From: Sedimenticola sp.
GTDB taxonomy: Bacteria; Pseudomonadota; Gammaproteobacteria; Chromatiales; Chromatiaceae
NCBI GenBank assembly: GCA_002869585.1
Contig: PKUO01000088.1
Location: 62,001 to 126,000 of the forward strand
Length of the DNA: 64,000 nucleotides
Direction: 5' to 3'
This document shows positions 1,233 through 17,463 of this stretch, in pieces; the stretch's first letter is position 1; each line of letters begins with the position of its first letter. Position numbers and translations under genes: made by a program. Under the pieces are notes generated by a model. The model ran no database searches. It was not told where the DNA came from and worked only from the letters and a program-made list of their open reading frames with translations.

Positions 1233-1278
1233 GCTGGATTCAGGCAAATTAGAACTTTAGATAATTGAGGTATTGAAA

Positions 1279-3285
1279 ATGGCTGAATTCGGAAATCCGG
1301 AAGTCGTCCAGGAAGAGGTTGACATCCTGTTGATCGGTGGTGGTATGGCCTGTTGTGGCGCCGCTTATGAGATCGGTCCCTGGTTGGACGCGGCTAAGAA
1401 AGAAGGTGTTGATATCAAGGTCAAGCTGGTCGACAAGGCCGCTATGGACCGTTCAGGCGCTGTTGCACAGGGTCTGTCAGCAATCAACACATACATTGGT
1501 TCAGAGCAGGATCCGGCTGATTACGCTCGCATGGTCTCCAACGACCTGATGGGCATCACCCGTGATGACCTGGCTTATGACCTGGGCCGTCATGTTGACG
1601 AGTCTGTTCACCTGTTCGAAGAGTGGGGCCTGCCCATTTGGAAGACTGACGAGAACGGCGAGCGTTTCGACGGTTCCAAAGGCATGACTCCTCTGAAAGA
1701 CGGCGGCAAGCCCGTACGTTCTGGTAAGTGGCAGATCATGATCAACGGCGAATCCTACAAGTGGATCGTTGCTGAGGCCGCCAAGAAAGCGCTGGGCATG
1801 GATAACATCCAGGAGCGTATCTTCATCGTCAAGCTGGTTAACGACAAGAACGACAAGAACCGCATCGCCGGTGCCGTCGGTTTCTCAACTCGTGAACATC
1901 AGCTGGTCGTGATCAAGGCCAAGGCCATCCTGCTGGCCGCCGGTGGTTGTGTAAACATCTTCCGTCCACGTTCAGTGGGTGAAGGTCAGGGTCGTGCCTG
2001 GTATCCAGTATGGAATGCCGGTTCTACCTACGCCATGGCTGCAGAGGCCGGCGCTGAGCTGACCATGATGGAAAACCGCTTCGTACCTACCCGTTTCAAA
2101 GACGGTTACGGTCCTGTTGGTGCATGGTTCCTGCTGTTCAAGTCCAAAGCAACTAACGCCTTCGGCGAAGTTTACATGGACCGCAACAAAGAGATGCTGG
2201 ACGACTATCCTCCTTACGGTCAGGCGGCTGTTCCTGCTTCCTGTCTGCGTAACCACCTGATGCTCAAAGAGATGAAGGAAGGTCGCGGTCCTATCTGGAT
2301 GGATACCGTAACTGCACTCGCCAACCTGCGCGAAACCCTGACTCCTCGCGAAGTCAAGCATCTGGAAGCAGAGGCTTGGGAAGACTTCCTTGATATGTGT
2401 ATCGGCCAGTGTGGTATCTGGGCTGGTGAAAACATCGAGCCAGAGAAGAAAAACTCTGAGCTGATGCCTACCGAACCCTACCTGCTGGGCTCACACTCTG
2501 GTTGCTGCGGTATCTGGACTTCTGGTCCTGATGACGTTGGCGCGCCGACTGAAGAGACCGAAGCCGGTGTTCCTGATCACCTGCCGAAGGGCTGGAACTG
2601 GGGCTACCGTGGTATGACCACTGTGTCCGGTCTGTTCACCGCTGGTGACGGCGTGGGCGCATCCGGCCACAAGTTCTCTTCCGGTTCACACGCTGAAGGC
2701 CGTATGGCGGCCAAGGCTATGGTCAAGTATGTCATGGACAACCAAGACTACTCACCAGAGCTGGATACCGACGTTGATTCTCTGATGGAAGAGATCTACC
2801 GTCCGGTTCGTAACTACCTTGAGCACAAGGATTACACCACCGCTATCGACGTCAACCCGAACTACATCACTCCACGTATGCTGCAGTTCCGTCTGCAGAA
2901 GATCATGGATGAGTACGTAGCCGGTGTTGCCACCTACTACACCACCAATGAGCACATGCTCAACCTGGCGGAGCAGAAGTTGGAAATGCTGAAGGAAGAC
3001 GCCCTGAAGATGCGTGCCAAGGACCTCCACGAGCTGTTGCGCGCGTGGGAGAACTATCACCGCATCCTGACGGCTGAAGCTCACATGAAACACATCCAGT
3101 TCCGTGAAGAATCCCGTTACCCGGGCTTCTACTATCGCATGGACAAGAACTTCGTTGACGAAGAAAACTGGAAGTGCTTTGTGAACTCCATCTATGACAA
3201 AGAGACCAAGACCTACAACTGCTTCAAGCGTGCCCATGTGGACATCGTTGACAAGTCCAAGTTGTTCAAGGCCGGAAGTCACTGA
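1279..3285 (+). CDS. aprA: Adenylylsulfate (APS) reductase, alpha subunit
   Basis: The 668-residue FAD subunit that interconverts sulfite plus AMP and APS in the cytoplasm. The N-terminus has the GGGMACCGAAYE dinucleotide-binding loop, and RSGAVAQGLSAIN follows, as in the fumarate-reductase-like flavoproteins. A GCGIWTSGP-like stretch and GVGASGHKFSSGSHAEGR near the C-terminus complete the FAD site. ATG at 1279 is preferred over the TTG two codons earlier because TGAGG sits at the right spacing. Second gene of the aprBA operon, ended by a strong terminator 44 bases downstream. No aprM is adjacent, and the likely electron partner is the qmo-hdr cluster at 6.4-11.5 kb. Confidence 0.98.
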   Translation: MAEFGNPEVVQEEVDILLIGGGMACCGAAYEIGPWLDAAKKEGVDIKVKLVDKAAMDRSGAVAQGLSAINTYIGSEQDPADYARMVSNDLMGITRDDLAYDLGRHVDESVHLFEEWGLPIWKTDENGERFDGSKGMTPLKDGGKPVRSGKWQIMINGESYKWIVAEAAKKALGMDNIQERIFIVKLVNDKNDKNRIAGAVGFSTREHQLVVIKAKAILLAAGGCVNIFRPRSVGEGQGRAWYPVWNAGSTYAMAAEAGAELTMMENRFVPTRFKDGYGPVGAWFLLFKSKATNAFGEVYMDRNKEMLDDYPPYGQAAVPASCLRNHLMLKEMKEGRGPIWMDTVTALANLRETLTPREVKHLEAEAWEDFLDMCIGQCGIWAGENIEPEKKNSELMPTEPYLLGSHSGCCGIWTSGPDDVGAPTEETEAGVPDHLPKGWNWGYRGMTTVSGLFTAGDGVGASGHKFSSGSHAEGRMAAKAMVKYVMDNQDYSPELDTDVDSLMEEIYRPVRNYLEHKDYTTAIDVNPNYITPRMLQFRLQKIMDEYVAGVATYYTTNEHMLNLAEQKLEMLKEDALKMRAKDLHELLRAWENYHRILTAEAHMKHIQFREESRYPGFYYRMDKNFVDEENWKCFVNSIYDKETKTYNCFKRAHVDIVDKSKLFKAGSH

Positions 3286-6381: not shown

Positions 6382-7281
6382 TTACTTGTTGGCGATATCT
6401 TCCAGTTTTTTTGCCTTGATGATCTGGCCATTGAGTGCTGCATCAGCGGCAGAACGACCAAAGGCAACGTCCAGCAGCTGGCTGTAGTAAACGACCGGCA
6501 TGTTGAACTTGGTGCCGAATTTCTCGTTGATCTGATCCTGGTAGATCTCAACGTTTGCCTGACACAACGGACATGGGGTTGTGATCAGGTCGGCGCCATT
6601 GTCATAGGCCGCTTCGATGATGCCGTGGATCATCTCCTGGGACTTTTCCGGCTCGGAGAATGCCAGGGCGCCACCGCAGCACTGGACCTTCTTCTCGTAG
6701 GTGCGAATCGATTCTGCGCCCACGCTCTCGACAATGTTGTCCAGATACATGGGGTTTTCGAAGGATTCACCTGCGATACCGAAGGGACGATTGGTCTGAC
6801 AGCCGACATAGCCGGCGATTTTCAGCCCTTCCAGTGGCTTTTTGACCTTTGCCTTTAGGGCATCGAAGCCGATGTCATCGACCAGTACCTCAACCATGTG
6901 CCGAACCTCGGCCTGACCCTTGTACATCAGTCCGGCTTCGGCCAGCGCGGCGTTGGCGTCCTTGAACATCTGCTGGTCATCATGCAGGCGTTCCTTGGCT
7001 TCACGGGTCGCCAGCCAGCACGCGGCGCAGGTGGCCACGATCTGCTGGCCGGGATTGTGCTCCTCGGAGAGGGCAATGTTGCGCGCCGAAAGGGCCAGAC
7101 GCGGCAGTTCGCCGCCACCGCCGTAGCCGATAGATGCGCCACAGCAGTTCCAGTCGGGAATTTCGTTGAGCTGAATGCCCAACTACTCGCACATGGTATC
7201 CACTGAGCGCATCAGGTTGGATGAGGATGCTCCGGTTTGTGAGGAGCACCCGGGATAGAAGGAGACTTCTTTCTTAGCCAT
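6382..7281 (-). CDS. hdrB: HdrB-like CCG-domain subunit, interrupted by in-frame TAG at codon 33
   Basis: A 299-codon HdrB-like protein with two CCG domains that bind noncubane [4Fe-4S] clusters. With HdrC it probably replaces the membrane subunit QmoC as the partner of QmoAB. Start ATG at 7281, 17 bases after hdrC. The frame is open except for TAG at 7183-7185. Cys12 (YPGC) lies before the TAG; NCCGAS, CAACW, YVGC, QCCGGALAF and CPLC lie after it. A TTG directly after the TAG could restart translation, but the product would lack Cys12, a ligand of the first CCG motif. The residue expected at codon 33 is probably Glu or Gln, one base from TAG. True mutation, assembly error and readthrough are all possible. 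Confidence 0.85.
7183..7185 (-). other. In-frame amber codon in hdrB
   Basis: Minus-strand TAG, codon 33 of hdrB, between Met-Cys-Glu and Leu-Gly-Ile. The frame and the HdrB-like sequence continue undisturbed on both sides, so this is a point change or recoding site and not an indel. Confidence 0.9.
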
Positions 7282-7297: not shown

Positions 7298-7921
7298 TTA
7301 ACCTTTGCCTTGCACTTTGGCATCTTCGATTTCCTGGGCCTTCTTGATCATCTTCTGCAGGCCGCTGGTGTCTTTAACGCCATGTCCGCCGAAGAATTCC
7401 ATCGGGTTCATGCGTTTTGCCTTCATCATGTTCTGGCCGAGTTTCTGGTTGGCCATGGCGTTTTTCACGCCCTGCCCAAAGCCGTCCTTGAAATAGAGGG
7501 AGAGACCCAGTTTCAACTCGTTGACACGGCCTTTCTTCATCAGGTTGTCCCAGAAGATCTGCGAGAATTCTGCGGTAGGCTGTTTCTGCGGTGCCAATCC
7601 AAGACGCTTGGAGTAGACCGCGAGGCCATGCATGATATGGGTGATGGGCAGTCCACGCGGACAGCGGGCGATACAGTTATAGCAGGAGGTGCACATCCAC
7701 ATGGAGTCGGATGTCAGCACTTCATCACGCTTGCCGGCGCGAATCATCATGAAGATTTCCTGTGGCGGATGATCCCAGTGCTTGCCCAGGGGACAAGAGC
7801 CGGCGCAAACGCCACACTGCATGCACATCTTTACCCATTCGCCTTCTTCGACGTTCGCCTCAACTTCCCTGAGGAAGCTGGTGCGATACTTTTCTATCAT
7901 TACTTTATTGAGATCACTCAT
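7298..7921 (-). CDS. hdrC: HdrC-like iron-sulfur subunit
   Basis: A 207-residue HdrC-like protein with two ferredoxin-type [4Fe-4S] motifs, CMQCGVCAGSCPLG (about residues 33-46) and CTSCYNCIARCPRG (about 77-90). The C-terminal half is helical and lysine-rich. HdrC passes electrons between the flavin/iron-sulfur subunits and HdrB. Here it should link QmoAB to HdrB, giving a soluble or loosely attached HdrBC in place of the cytochrome-b-type QmoC. The start has a GGAGAG ribosome site, and qmoB ends 11 bases upstream, so the genes are cotranscribed. Confidence 0.93.
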   Translation of the reverse strand: MSDLNKVMIEKYRTSFLREVEANVEEGEWVKMCMQCGVCAGSCPLGKHWDHPPQEIFMMIRAGKRDEVLTSDSMWMCTSCYNCIARCPRGLPITHIMHGLAVYSKRLGLAPQKQPTAEFSQIFWDNLMKKGRVNELKLGLSLYFKDGFGQGVKNAMANQKLGQNMMKAKRMNPMEFFGGHGVKDTSGLQKMIKKAQEIEDAKVQGKG

Positions 7922-7932
7922 TGAGGCTCTCC

Positions 7933-10185
7933 TTAGAACTTGAATGGGCTCAGGCCGATTCGCTCGACGGTTTCAGCCATGTCGTTAATCAGCTTGGGCG
8001 CACGCGTTACGTCGGTGATCGCCACCTCGTAGACTTCGACGCGCTCCGGCTCCAGATTCAGCGACTGCAGGGTGTCGCCCACTTTGCTCATGCGCTCATG
8101 CGCGATCGCTGAGCCGCGAACGAAGTGACACTGATAGTCATCGCCCTTCTGACAGCCCATCAGAACTATGCCGTCGTATCCGCTGTTGAGCGCATCGGTG
8201 ATCCATGACAGGCTCACAGAACCCAGGCAGCGTACCGGGATGATGCGCGCCCATGGGTTGATCTCGGTGCCGTTCATGGATGCCTGGTCAAGTGCAGGAT
8301 AGGCATCGTTTTCGCAGGCGAGTACCAGAATGCGCGGCTTCTCGTCGAACTCTTCCGGCATATCCACATTTTTCAACTGCTGACCAACGGTGTCGATCGA
8401 GTAGTTTTCGAAGGAGATGACACGTACCGGGCAGGCGCCCATACAGGTGCCGCAGCGGCGGCAGCGCGCCTCGTTGAACTGCGGATATTTCTGCTCGTCT
8501 TCGTTGATGGCGCCGAACGGACATTCAACAGTACAGCGCTTACACTGGGTACAGCCTTCTTTGCGGAAGCTCGGGTAGGAGAGGTCGCCCACGCGAGGAT
8601 GCGCTGCGCGGCCCTGGCCAGCATTTTCAGCGGCCTGGATCGCCTTCATGGCGGCACCGGCAGCATCATCGGCGGCCTGACGCATATCCATCGGACGACG
8701 CTGTGGACCGGCGGCATAGATGCCGGTACGGCGGGTCTCGTAGGGGAAGCAGATGAAGTGGGAATCGGTAAAGCCGTAACGCAGATGCGGAAGGTCGGTT
8801 CCCTGACGGTAGTCCAGGTTCAGGATGGAAGGTGGTGCAACATCCAGTTCCGCCTTGAGCTTGGCCTTTTCGACTTCGTCTTCGGTCTCTTCATAGGCGA
8901 GCTGTGCATAAGGATCGGGTCCGGTGTTGGGCACCATGCCGACATCCAGTACCACCAGGTCGGCCTGCATGCTGGTATCTTCATTCAGGATAAGATCCTT
9001 GAATTTGACTTCCAGAGTGCTGCCGGGGACTACCTCGCCCACATTACCCTTGGTGAAGGTAACCATCTTCTGCTGGCCGGAGCGATAGAAATCCTCGCCA
9101 GCGGCACCGGGGGTGCGCAGGTTGTCGAAGAAAATGGTGGTATCGCAGTCGTCACCGTTCAGCTCTTTCAGATACAGCGCCTGCTTGATGGCGATCAGGT
9201 CGCCAATGCCGTTGTGGTAAGGCAGCTGCCCATCCGCTTTAGAGTTCTGACCCACATTCTGAACGAAGGCAACCGCAGTCACCGGCTTGCCATCAGATGG
9301 TCGTTTGATCGGTCCGCCGTTCGCCTCTTTCGCCAGCTTTTCCATCTCCTCGTTGGTGATGATGTCGGCGCTGTTGGCATAGTTGAACTGGCTCAGGTTA
9401 CTCGGATCGTACAGGTTGAAGCCGGTAGCCTGGATGATCGCACCGATGCTGAGGTTGGTCGTGGAGCCTGATTCGGTAGCCAGGTCGACACTGAAACGGC
9501 CCGGTGCACCATCGGTTTTGGTGATGCTGCTATTCAGATAGACGGTGATCAGATCATTCGCTTCGATATCGGCGATCATCTTCTCAACGCCGGTATCCTG
9601 CGGGTCGGCATAGGGGGAGCGTGTCGGGATCGATTTGTAGTAGTTGGCCGCATGACCACCGAGAGCGCCGGTTTTTTCAACCAGATGTACCGGATAGCCG
9701 GCGGTGGCCGCTTCGATGGCCGCAGTCATTCCTGTGATACCGCCACCGACAACGAGAATGTTCCGGTTCAGTTGCTGCTCACTGGAGCCTGAAGGCTTGG
9801 TCATATACTTGACTTCGGCGCAGGCCATGCGGATGTAGTCGTCGGCCATCTCCTGCGTGGTTTCCTGGTGTTCCGGGGCGTCCGGGCGAACCCAGATCAC
9901 GCCTTCACGCAGGTTGGCGCGGGACATGGCGACATCGGTGAAGTTGAATGCTTCCACCTTGGCGCGGCGCGAGCAGGCGGCGATCATGATGTGCGTGGCG
10001 CCAACGTCGGCGATGTCATCACGAATCATCTGTACGCCTTCGGCGCTGCACAGCATTTCGTGCTGTTTGCAGCTCTGCATCTTGCCTTCACGGGTGGCAA
10101 TCATCTCCAACTGACTGGCATCGAGTCGATCGCCAATGCCGCAACCGGTGCAGATGTATCCGGCAAATTTCTTTTCATCAGCCAC
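7933..10185 (-). CDS. qmoB: Quinone-modifying oxidoreductase subunit QmoB (HdrA/MvhD-like)
   Basis: A 750-residue flavoprotein. Order of parts: N-terminal CTGCGIG motif (residue 12), FAD-binding loop VVGGGITGMTAA (about 145), two ferredoxin motifs CTQCKRCTVECPFG and CRRCGTCMGACPVR (about 543-585), and a C-terminal MvhD-like domain with LACEND, VRCLGS and LMGCQKGDDYQCH. This fused HdrA plus MvhD layout defines QmoB. GTG at 10185 is the chosen start: GGAGGG precedes it, and it lies four bases after the qmoA stop. The ATG at 10266 would overlap qmoA heavily and adds residues without family features. The complex is expected to take electrons from AprBA to the quinone pool. Confidence 0.95.
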   Translation of the reverse strand: MADEKKFAGYICTGCGIGDRLDASQLEMIATREGKMQSCKQHEMLCSAEGVQMIRDDIADVGATHIMIAACSRRAKVEAFNFTDVAMSRANLREGVIWVRPDAPEHQETTQEMADDYIRMACAEVKYMTKPSGSSEQQLNRNILVVGGGITGMTAAIEAATAGYPVHLVEKTGALGGHAANYYKSIPTRSPYADPQDTGVEKMIADIEANDLITVYLNSSITKTDGAPGRFSVDLATESGSTTNLSIGAIIQATGFNLYDPSNLSQFNYANSADIITNEEMEKLAKEANGGPIKRPSDGKPVTAVAFVQNVGQNSKADGQLPYHNGIGDLIAIKQALYLKELNGDDCDTTIFFDNLRTPGAAGEDFYRSGQQKMVTFTKGNVGEVVPGSTLEVKFKDLILNEDTSMQADLVVLDVGMVPNTGPDPYAQLAYEETEDEVEKAKLKAELDVAPPSILNLDYRQGTDLPHLRYGFTDSHFICFPYETRRTGIYAAGPQRRPMDMRQAADDAAGAAMKAIQAAENAGQGRAAHPRVGDLSYPSFRKEGCTQCKRCTVECPFGAINEDEQKYPQFNEARCRRCGTCMGACPVRVISFENYSIDTVGQQLKNVDMPEEFDEKPRILVLACENDAYPALDQASMNGTEINPWARIIPVRCLGSVSLSWITDALNSGYDGIVLMGCQKGDDYQCHFVRGSAIAHERMSKVGDTLQSLNLEPERVEVYEVAITDVTRAPKLINDMAETVERIGLSPFKF

Positions 10186-10189
10186 TTTC

Positions 10190-11485
10190 TTAACCCTCCG
10201 TTCTGGCGACGCGATTGACAACCTGAACCGCGCGCAGTGCAGCGCCTGTGGCCTGCTGTACAGCACGGTTCACGTCCAGTGCGTCTGATGCGCAACCAGC
10301 GGCGAATATGCCGCCGTTTTCAGGTGCGGGCTCGATGAAACCCTCTTCGTTGACCACGATATCGACAGGGAAGCTTCCCTTGTCAACGCTGGGTTCCATT
10401 CCCACTGCAAGCACCACCAGATCGTATTCGTCAGCGTAGCGGTTGTAGCCTTCAGTATCTACACCATGAAGAATGGGGTTGCCGTTTTCACGGTTTTCGA
10501 CAATCGAGGCGACCTTGGATTTGATGAACTTGACGTTCGGGTTTTTCCGGACGTTCTGGTAGAAGTCCTCAAACCGGTCGATAGCGCGGATGTCGATGTA
10601 GTAAATTGTGGATTTACCTTCGTCACCCCAGGCCTCTTGCACGAAGTGGGTCTGTTTCAGGGAGGCCATGCAGCAGATGCGTGAGCAGTGCAGCAGGTGA
10701 TTGTGGTCGCGAGAGCCGGCGCACTGGATGAACGCCACGTTTTTGGCCTCTTTGCCGTCTGAAGGCCGGACCAGCTTGCCGCCGGTGGGACCCTGGGGGT
10801 CGGCCATGCGCTCGAATTCGACGTTGGTGATCACATTCGCGAAACGGTCGTAACCATAGGGCTGAATCTTGTTGGCGTCGTAGGGTTTCCAGCCAGTCGC
10901 CCAAACCACCGCGCCGGCCTTGAAGGAGATGGTCTCTTCCTGCATGTCCAGATCGATGGCGTTGTATTTACAGGCGGCCTTGGCCTTCTCGGCATCATCG
11001 GTGCCAATCATCGCAGGATCAATGACGTAACGCTGCGGATGCGCCATCTTGTGCGGCAGATAGGCCCCCTTGCGCTTGCTCATCCCGGCCAGGCCATAGT
11101 TGAAGTCGTTGTCGAACTCCGACTCGATGGCGTTGGCGCAGTCGCCGCAGGCGGTGCAGTTGTCGTTGACATAGCGGGGGCTGATTTTTACCGTGGCGGT
11201 ATAGTCGCCTGCCTCACCGGCAATGTCGGTCACCTCTGCCATGGTCAAGATCACCACATTGGGGTTCATCTTGGCGCGGCGCTGGTTGATTTCCAGACCA
11301 CAGGTCGGAAAACACAGTTTGGGGAAATATTTGTACAGTTGGGTGATACGTCCACCAACAAAGGGGCGTTTTTCAACCAGCACGACCTTCTTGCCAGTTT
11401 CAGCGGCTTCCAGGGCTGCGGTCAGACCGCTGATCCCACCACCGACTACCAGGATGGTCTGGTTGGTTGCGATTACTTCCGTCAT
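10190..11485 (-). CDS. qmoA: Quinone-modifying oxidoreductase subunit QmoA (HdrA-like)
   Basis: A 431-residue HdrA-like flavoprotein. The N-terminus has VVGGGISGLTAALEAAETG (FAD loop) followed by CFPTCGLEIN, a QmoA/HdrA cysteine motif; NDNCTACGDCAN lies near residue 115 and CAGSRD plus CSRICCMASLKQ near 255-275. It is the first gene of the minus-strand qmoA-qmoB-hdrC-hdrB operon. ATG at 11485 has a strong GGAGGA ribosome site. QmoA is the subunit thought to contact AprBA. The operon is convergent with aprBA, not continuous with it, with three unrelated genes between them. Confidence 0.95.
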   Translation of the reverse strand: MTEVIATNQTILVVGGGISGLTAALEAAETGKKVVLVEKRPFVGGRITQLYKYFPKLCFPTCGLEINQRRAKMNPNVVILTMAEVTDIAGEAGDYTATVKISPRYVNDNCTACGDCANAIESEFDNDFNYGLAGMSKRKGAYLPHKMAHPQRYVIDPAMIGTDDAEKAKAACKYNAIDLDMQEETISFKAGAVVWATGWKPYDANKIQPYGYDRFANVITNVEFERMADPQGPTGGKLVRPSDGKEAKNVAFIQCAGSRDHNHLLHCSRICCMASLKQTHFVQEAWGDEGKSTIYYIDIRAIDRFEDFYQNVRKNPNVKFIKSKVASIVENRENGNPILHGVDTEGYNRYADEYDLVVLAVGMEPSVDKGSFPVDIVVNEEGFIEPAPENGGIFAAGCASDALDVNRAVQQATGAALRAVQVVNRVARTEG

Positions 11486-11925: not shown

Positions 11926-13806
11926 GTGACCCGATCCAGTAATTCTTTCCTGTTGCCTTCGCGCAAAAAAATAATATCGGGACAGACAGGTTTCGAGCAG
12001 AAGCTGTTCAAGCAGTGGGTCGAAGATCTGCCGATTGGCAACGTCGGGCTGACGGCCCGCCTGCTGTATGACCGGCTCCACGAGATGAACCGTCTGGAGT
12101 TTCCGCCCGTCGAACGTTTTCGCGCCCTCGAGATGATCATGGAGCCCTTGCAGTTCGTGCTTGGGTCATTGTCCAAGGATCTTATCAGAGAGCCCCTGCC
12201 GCTTTCCAAGCGAAATGTTCTGATCGCCGAACTGGTGACCAAGCTCGATGTGCTGATCATCCAGGCCTATAAGACGGTGCTGGATCAGTTTCATCACGAC
12301 TCTATTGCCGGCATGGTACTACACAAGGGGTGCCGCGCAGAGGCCCTGCATCGGGTGCTCTATTTCTTTGGCCGTGCGCTGTTGACCGCCTACCAGCTCT
12401 ACCAGAGCCCGCCCAGGCACATCTGGCAGGAGATCCATGGCATCTATCACTATGCGGTTGAATCGAAACTGCATGACAAGCTGCTGGATAACGAGGAGCA
12501 GGGGGATGTTCGCAAATCCACCGCCACTGACCTGTACAAGCAGATTCTGCTGCTCTCTCTTGCGGGTCCCTATCGTCTGCAGCCGGGTGAAATCGGCAAG
12601 GTTTATCACGCGCTGTTGCGCTGGGTGTCCAAGGTGCGGCTGATCAACCTGGCCCATGCGGGGCCGGATGACGGGCTGTTTCTGGTGGACATCTCGGCGG
12701 ACATAGCCCCCAAATACCGGGCCATGCTGGGGGATGAGATCATCAAGATCGGCTGGGTGCTTGATACCTCCGGTTTGGCGGCCGAACTACTCAAAGAGCA
12801 TGAAGAGCTGACTGCCAAGTCGGGGGGTAAAGAGGCCATTCGTCCTCTCAATCACCCGTTGGCTGTCGGCGGTGATCTGCTGGCGCAACTGATGATGTGC
12901 TGGGGGGTCGGGCCCCAGCGGGCGGATGATCGGGTTGCGGTAGGCGGGCATGTCACGCTGACCTGCGGCATCGATACCCTGTACACCCTGTTTGGCGGTG
13001 AAGATCTGCCCGAGCTGTCCCAATCCAACTATCGGGTGGGGTCGCTCACTGGTGACAAGTAGAAGGCGGTTTCCCATGAACCGGTTTCCAGGTCACGCCT
13101 GGCCGCGGATGAATACCTGGTGGATAGTGGATCGGATCTGGAGGCATTCATCAAGCATCAGTTGAACAAAGAGGACGCTGAAGCGGAAGATGCAGAGGAA
13201 GAGGATAAGAGCGAAAAGCTCCACTCCTACATTATCGACGAAACAGACGAACTCAAAGGGGTATGCATCAAGCGTTGCGCCATCTACAACCAAAGCGCCA
13301 ACGGCTACCACCTCTCATGGAGCGGCGAGAGTGACACCCGCGCCCACGTCGGCGAACTGGTCGGGGTGAAACGCGATGATGGCGATGGGCGATTTCAGGT
13401 TGGTGTGATTCGCTGGATCAAGTCCAGCGTGGGCAATGCTATCGAATTTGGCGTGGAGCTGTTTCAGGGTGAAATGACGCCGATTATCATTTCCAGAAAG
13501 AAGCTGCTGCAGAATACGGCAGACAGCTGGCGGGGTTTTCTGCACCGTACCTCGCAGAATGCCGAAACCCTTTTTGCGCCGCTGTTCTATGCAGGTAATG
13601 ATGATCAGATCTTCATTCGAGTGGGCACCGAAGAGAGGCCGGTTGTACTGGGTCGGGCGCTGGAGAGCTCGGCCTCATTCGTGCAGTTTCAGTTCGACAC
13701 CCAGTCCCCACCGGAAGAAGCGCAAAAATCGCCCCAGCAGCCTGGCATTGCTGATCGGGTAGAGGATGCGCTGGACTTCGAGGGTATCTGGAACGACATC
13801 AAATAA
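11926..13806 (+). CDS. Large protein with degenerate PilZ domain, interrupted by in-frame TAG at codon 379
   Basis: One 626-codon frame from GTG at 11926 (AAGGAG upstream) to TAA at 13806, broken only by TAG at 13060-13062. The first 378 residues are helical with no motif I can name. After the TAG come 19 open codons, an acidic linker, and a domain with NQSANG, which fits the (D/N)xSxxG half of the PilZ c-di-GMP motif, ending in a WIKSSVG...FGVELF stretch typical of PilZ C-termini. The RxxxR half is not obvious; an Arg-rich stretch lies just after the TAG. A separate second gene starting at GTG 13120 is possible but has no ribosome site. GGDEF proteins and PilU elsewhere in the window make c-di-GMP signalling plausible. 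Confidence 0.65.
13060..13062 (+). other. In-frame amber codon in the PilZ-type gene
   Basis: TAG codon 379, flanked by Lys codons on both sides. The same frame remains open for 57 bases to the next possible start (GTG 13120) and then to 13806. Confidence 0.85.
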
Positions 13807-15897: not shown

Positions 15898-17463
15898 TTA
15901 AACCGATATGCACACACCGCCACGCCGGCTGTCGCCATGCCCGCTGAGTCGGCCCTTGCTGTCGCGTATCACGGTATGTGCTCCACCAAAGAAGAGGTTT
16001 TTTTCAGGCCAAAGCCGGTGTTTCGGAAAGTGCATCTCCAACTCTTTGATCACCTGTTCAGCGGGACCGGTTTCAATGTTTAGCAGATCATTTTCAAAGT
16101 GTACCCGCGGTTGTTCAACCGCATGCTCGGCGGTCATTGCATAGTCCACCATGTTCACCAGCACCTGCAAAATTGCACTGCGGATTCGGTTCGATCCACC
16201 AGAGCCTGTGACTATGGCGTTATTATCCGGGGAAAAAACCAGGGTCGGAGACATCATCGAGGCGATGCGCTGATTGGTTGGCCAGTTGTGGAAGCCGTGT
16301 GGATTGATATCCTCTTCGCCCAGCATGTTGTTCATCATGATGCCGGTTTCCGGTATGACATATCCGGCGCCTTCGCCATTCGAAAGCGTCATGCTGGCCA
16401 GGTTGCCCTCGCTGTCGGCAATGCTGATCTGGGTTGTGCCGCGTGAAAATACCGCATGATTCTGCATGCTTTCCAGATAGTCCTGCAGATACTCGCCCCT
16501 GAGAATTTCACGGCTGGTGTTTTCGTCCAGATGCAGATCAATCCTTTTCTCCTGACGCAGTTGCTGTGCCAGTTGCTGGGCCCTGGCCACTCTATACAGA
16601 TGCTGCTGACTGTTGGCCGGCCAGTTATTGAGTTTCTCCGGTTCGAGTAACGACAGTGCAAAGGCGATCAGTGTGCCGCCCAGCGATGGGGCAGGGTTGG
16701 TGAACATCTTCGCGCCGTGATAATCAAGTGCCAGCGGCTTGCGCTTGATCACCTCATAGCGCAACAGGTCCTGCTCAGTCAGGCAGCCGCCGTTTTCCTG
16801 TGAGTCATGCACTAGCCGCGCGCCGATTTCACCGCGATAAAAGAGCGCTTCCCCTTCATGGGCCAGACCGTCGAAGCAATCGGCCATCTCGATCTGGGTA
16901 ACGGCTTCGCCCGGCTGTGCAAGGGTATCTGCCGCGCTGCCGCCAAGTGGGGTGTGAAGGTTCAGCGCTGCCTGACTCGATTTGATGATCGGTGAAATGA
17001 TCTCGGAGATATAGTGTTGGAAACTGTTGACGATGACGCCGTTGCGCGCGGCTTCACGGGCGGGTTGGACGATCAGCTCCATCGGCATCCTGCAGTGATT
17101 GCGGTGAACTTCGAATATACCTTTCACCACGCCGGGAGTGGCGATCGAGCCCATGCCAATGTGGAACTCCTGCTGGGCGGTGCCGAAATCGGCGACAATC
17201 GGGTAAAAATCAACCGCGTCGATCTTTGGCCGGTTGATCGGTGTCTGGGTAAAGAAATCATACAGCAGAGGACTTTTATTATTCGCATGCGCCAGCAGGA
17301 AGCCCCCTCCGCCGAGTGATGAGAGAATCGGTTCGGCCACGCAACTGGCGAACAGCGCCGCCAGGGCAGCGTCGAAGGCGTTGCCACCGGCACGCAGGGT
17401 TTCCGCTGCCGCATTGGCGGTGACCTCGTGACCGGCAGCGACTATGCCTCTGTGGTTTTTCAT
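15898..17463 (-). CDS. ggt: Gamma-glutamyltranspeptidase family protein
   Basis: A 521-residue Ntn hydrolase of the GGT family, which removes or transfers the gamma-glutamyl group of glutathione and related compounds. The N-terminus has GHEVTANAAAETLRAGGNAFDAALAA. Self-cleavage and catalysis should use the first Thr of GTTQISIAD, preceded by a pro-region of roughly 350 residues; GEGAGYVIPETGIMMNNMLGE and GSGGSNRIR follow as in active GGTs. No signal peptide is obvious from ATG 17463, so it may be cytoplasmic. A longer frame to 17532 adds no recognisable features. The gene stands alone between the HU-type gene and the divergent giant gene. Confidence 0.88.
   Translation of the reverse strand: MKNHRGIVAAGHEVTANAAAETLRAGGNAFDAALAALFASCVAEPILSSLGGGGFLLAHANNKSPLLYDFFTQTPINRPKIDAVDFYPIVADFGTAQQEFHIGMGSIATPGVVKGIFEVHRNHCRMPMELIVQPAREAARNGVIVNSFQHYISEIISPIIKSSQAALNLHTPLGGSAADTLAQPGEAVTQIEMADCFDGLAHEGEALFYRGEIGARLVHDSQENGGCLTEQDLLRYEVIKRKPLALDYHGAKMFTNPAPSLGGTLIAFALSLLEPEKLNNWPANSQQHLYRVARAQQLAQQLRQEKRIDLHLDENTSREILRGEYLQDYLESMQNHAVFSRGTTQISIADSEGNLASMTLSNGEGAGYVIPETGIMMNNMLGEEDINPHGFHNWPTNQRIASMMSPTLVFSPDNNAIVTGSGGSNRIRSAILQVLVNMVDYAMTAEHAVEQPRVHFENDLLNIETGPAEQVIKELEMHFPKHRLWPEKNLFFGGAHTVIRDSKGRLSGHGDSRRGGVCISV

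Follow-up and report, generated by a model that had tools for sequence, protein, structure and literature searches.

The Qmo-Hdr operon and its interrupted hdrB frame

In the window, meaning the whole stretch of 64,000 nucleotides that was analysed, the genes are arranged on the minus strand in the order qmoA-qmoB-hdrC-hdrB, with hdrB being the last and with aprBA located nearby on the opposite strand. The HdrA-like qmoA (10190-11485), the likewise HdrA-like qmoB, which has an FlpD domain (7933-10185, the start being set where the relatives start), and hdrC (7298-7921) are all intact. On the plus strand, aprB (759-1232) and aprA (1273-3285), encoding the beta and alpha subunits of the APS reductase, match TIGR02060 and TIGR02061, respectively, above the cut-offs, and no aprM-like gene is seen among the open frames immediately upstream of aprB. 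The QmoAB-HdrBC arrangement is known in sulfur oxidisers with a Qmo-linked APS reductase (PMC2211403, PMC10504309), and this variant of the Qmo complex is found in the sulfur oxidisers and in some sulfate reducers (PMC10504309; PMC2211403). The host is a Sedimenticolaceae-type sulfur oxidiser.

The hdrB gene (6382-7281, minus strand) runs from the ATG at 7281 to the TAA at 6382-6384, giving 300 codons including the final TAA, with a single internal stop, the TAG at 7183-7185 on the same strand, which is codon 33. The in-frame TAG in an otherwise open frame, as reported in the preliminary description, is thus confirmed, and since the frame is that of an otherwise intact conserved gene, the stop represents more than a chance occurrence in an open frame. 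The family-like sequence that had been described on both sides of the TAG is also found: the 266-codon portion 3' of the stop matches the HdrB-type NCBIfam models, with scores under the equivalog cut-offs, and the Pfam CCG (cysteine-rich) domain, and the frame, when codon 33 is given as X, can be aligned with the solved HdrB chains, e.g., 5odc_B. Together with the operon context, these matches uphold the gene call. It is noted that the CCG domain, the similarity to HdrB, the adjacent hdrC, qmoB and qmoA and the nearby aprBA are all present, and that what hdrB lacks in the assembly, owing to the TAG at codon 33, is an uninterrupted frame that contains Cys12, the first cluster cysteine. If the stop is an error, such an uninterrupted frame would be present in the organism. 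In the genome (3.93 Mb in 109 contigs, with a completeness of 100% as estimated by the tool) only one match to hdrB was found, and a backup by a second copy of hdrB was therefore rejected.

Directly 3' of the stop there is an in-frame TTG (7180-7182, minus strand), which is a candidate restart codon, and it can be conceived that the TAG is real and that a working shorter HdrB is made from TTG 7182 via restart after the termination. Such a product, as pointed out in the preliminary description, would lose Cys12. This cysteine, in the motif YPGC, aligns with the first cysteine of the solved HdrB and sits within the N-terminus that is conserved in the alignment of the relatives; moreover, the ribosome-binding context is weak, with only a ribosome-binding-like GAG upstream of the TTG. 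A working product of the restart is thus regarded as very unlikely.

Codon 33 and the state of hdrB in the relatives

The preliminary description had suggested aligning the homologues of HdrB at position 33. In total, 110 aligned copies of hdrB cover this codon; two of them represent the locus of the window itself, leaving 108 relatives to be counted. The residue is Glu in 100 of them, Val in three, Asp in two and Tyr, Leu and Thr in one each, with the Glu being encoded mostly as GAG and otherwise as GAA, and in none of the 108 relatives is there a stop. In the single same-genus relative compared (G010) the codon is GAG. The simplest history of codon 33, as read from these sequences, would be a single G>T change that turned GAG into TAG. 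The stop is private to the Sedimenticola assembly among the copies examined.

Besides codon 33, hdrB shows no deviation at the 147 sites that are at least 95% conserved, and at the 463 such sites of hdrB, hdrC and qmoB taken together the window also shows none. Any lesion would therefore be very recent, with no long decay of hdrB. This is what would be expected if a real nonsense mutation had arisen very recently in the strain that was sequenced. Translation would then stop after 32 residues, no HdrB or only an inactive piece of it, started at TTG 7182, would be made, and the APS reductase would lose its QmoAB-HdrCB link. In support of such a mutation, the TAG is present in the assembled sequence, the operon is without other decay, and the module can be lost in the family, with hdrB unmatched in 20 of the 57 family genomes and with the hdrC-hdrB junction looking degraded in the relative G031. 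Weighed together with the evidence from the rest of the genome given below, a real mutation is regarded as unlikely, though having an appreciable chance.

Three relatives show irregular copies of their own. In G031 (L160, C7:60001-80000; 8011-8919) the first part of hdrB is unrecognisable, hdrC was not matched in the interval separating qmoB from hdrB, and some 9 kb off (about 16905-17144) there is a degenerate piece of hdrB, all of which is possibly a real decay of the hdrC-hdrB module. In G007 (L155, C27, 17779-18195) there is, about 3 kb past hdrB, a 138-aa frame in which the C-terminal third of that gene recurs together with a short N-terminal piece of it, apparently identical to the neighbouring copy. 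In G013 (L161, C64), a genome that is 40% complete, hdrB is frameshifted in its last third, which probably reflects the assembly quality.

Lone stops elsewhere in the genome

In 0.9 Mb of the 3.93 Mb genome, a sample standing for the whole, stops flanked on either side by coding in the same frame were sought, and the results were checked against the relatives. Most of the stop matches in the two-way tblastn were judged to be out-of-frame or antisense and were excluded, as were adjacent genes sharing one frame in the scans by codon usage. In the sample, about 12 conserved genes are intact except for a lone in-frame stop, with TAG, TAA and TGA all being used. The genes are named from sequence resemblance, except tmk, which is above its NCBIfam cut-off. 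Besides hdrB, the clear cases are thiC (C36:41596, GAG>TAG), an acetolactate-synthase-like gene (C53:230881, GAG>TAG), cheB (C53:94457, TCG>TAG), tmk (C66:23823, minus strand, TAA where the relatives have Glu), a TauE-like gene (C53:16952, Ser>TAA), the gene at C66:63155 (Ser, TCA, to TAA) and a sensor kinase (C96:80180, GGA>TGA). A TAG is also present in mltG (C66:24202, minus strand), at a residue that is Asp or Glu in most of the relatives; this gene is a neighbour of tmk, and the two stops are 379 bases apart in frames that are otherwise intact.

Four cases are weaker, having an ambiguous ancestral residue or a single homologue. Those in an MCP, a znuC-like ABC ATPase and a DNA ligase, which are kept outside the clear set because the residue varies among the relatives, are likely to be further lone stops; the PDB search with the ABC ATPase fragment gave paralogues only. 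The fourth, which the preliminary description does not mention, is another lone in-frame TAG within the window (13060-13062, plus strand); it splits a conserved gene of 626 codons adjoining qmoA (11926-13806) into 378 and 247 codons. This gene has no Pfam match, and its homologues are uninterrupted in G010, G036 and G003, with Glu in G010 by the alignment. As a control, 1.28 Mb of the relative G036 was scanned, giving one weak match of 41% identity that is judged to be an antisense artefact, as compared with two convincing cases given by the matching test in the 0.9 Mb of Sedimenticola, a contrast that is indicative only.

All eight clear cases are compatible with G>T or C>A, the codons replaced being those of Glu, Ser or Gly. 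Judged from the codon usage of the genome, 36.5% of the nonsense opportunities are G>T/C>A and 25% are C>T/G>A, and on the assumption that all substitution classes are equally frequent, the probability of eight out of eight is 0.365^8 = 3e-4. The change C>T, which is usually the commonest natural one, is found in none of the clear cases, and this argues against the real nonsense mutation at hdrB. As a point against an error, the missense differences from G036 are without an excess of G>T/C>A (82, versus 89 of the reverse), though only about 6 extra would be expected by our estimate, too few to be seen.

If the hdrB stop were a real mutation, the remaining stops would likewise have arisen by recent mutation, in a strain rich in G:C to T:A changes. 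By contrast, both MutY and MutM are intact, being above their cut-offs with open frames, so that loss of mutY or mutM as the mutator cause was rejected and no obvious source of G:C to T:A mutation is seen in this check of the two genes. A matching stop is, moreover, present in tmk. This gene is single-copy in the Sedimenticola genome and has one TAA inside, ahead of most of the enzyme, at a site which is Glu in 20 of 20 matches from the relatives, several of these being overlapping loci from one genome. Thymidylate kinase is essential in bacteria. Because tmk is single-copy and essential, with Glu everywhere examined and with the stop early in the frame, it is unlikely that this stop is fixed in living cells, and given the like signature, the hdrB stop probably shares its origin.

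The stop codons used bear also on whether full-length HdrB is made by readthrough of the TAG, or by its decoding with a suppressor tRNA or as pyrrolysine. For this, TAG is the commonest interruption (seven out of 13 in the final scan) and several of the interruptions are in core-metabolism genes. A phenomenon of TAG only was nevertheless rejected: the accepted cases were initially all TAG, and the wider scan then brought TAA and TGA, which one suppressor would leave unexplained. No match to PylS was found above the cut-off, the best one having 30 bits versus the cut-off of 178. None of the 44 tRNAs found has the anticodon CUA (one truncated tRNA reads as Pro CGG by eye), in an assembled set that is not quite complete, Ile-GAT and Ala-TGC being also not found, and widening the tRNA search to E = 10 gave only four extra matches, all below the gathering score. 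In addition, RF1 is intact and TAG terminates 118 of the 565 open frames of at least 200 aa, i.e., about a fifth of them. With the PylS and CUA tRNA searches being negative, pyrrolysine and other amber suppressors were rejected, and decoding of the TAG is considered extremely unlikely. That the stops exist in the cells and that many genes are translated across them, TAG, TAA and TGA all being inefficient terminators in a gammaproteobacterium having a normal RF1, is given a chance close to nil.

Origin of the hdrB stop and comparison with known systems

Based on these data, we consider it likely that the TAG in hdrB is an error in the consensus sequence. This explanation is favoured because other genes, the single-copy tmk among them, likewise carry TAG, TAA or TGA stops that are compatible with G>T/C>A. 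The cause is probably oxidative damage of the 8-oxoG type, since oxidised guanine arising in the sample or in the library preparation is an established source of G>T artefacts (PMC12390751). The first G of GAG would have been read as T through 8-oxoG formed in the handling of the DNA or in the library preparation, and the living population would carry an ordinary intact hdrB giving the HdrB subunit of QmoAB-HdrCB, a complex that is thought to accept electrons from the APS reductase in the oxidation of sulfite. We thus infer that the changes go back to the sampled DNA or to the base calls, not to the cells, with oxidation being the cause. Against an error, it should be noted that the assembly is of good quality in other respects, as seen from the number of contigs and the completeness given above, and that the implied rate of about 2 in 10,000, as a rough estimate, is high for a well-covered draft.

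Among the three explanations that were put forward in the preliminary description, i.e., a recent nonsense mutation, an assembly error and amber readthrough, it is thus the error that is favoured, by the stops found genome-wide, while the readthrough is left unsupported. If the stop proved to be real, the strain would have lost the HdrB of the apparent electron partner of its APS reductase. Most likely, the hdrB stop is an error of base calling or DNA damage rather than a new reading of the genetic code. Caution is in order for similar cases, in that lone in-frame stops in assemblies can mimic recoding or gene loss, and the substitution class taken genome-wide, together with an essential gene, can help to separate these readings without the reads. 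A literature search on premature stops in metagenome assemblies found nothing.

The case can be compared with three known systems. With the decoding of amber codons as pyrrolysine it shares the in-frame TAG within an otherwise intact gene, and it differs in that no PylS and no CUA tRNA were found and that the other stop codons are hit too. With the G>T/C>A artefacts of 8-oxoG (PMC12390751) it shares the lone changes, compatible with G:C to T:A, that are spread across unrelated genes including a presumed-essential one; by contrast, those artefacts are usually variants in a low fraction of the reads, whereas the changes in Sedimenticola stand in the consensus. With the known HdrB of QmoAB-HdrBC it shares the gene order qmoA-qmoB-hdrC-hdrB near aprBA, the CCG domain, the conserved cysteines and an identity of about 72-91% to most of the relatives along the frame, and it differs from that HdrB solely by the in-frame TAG at codon 33 in the present assembly.
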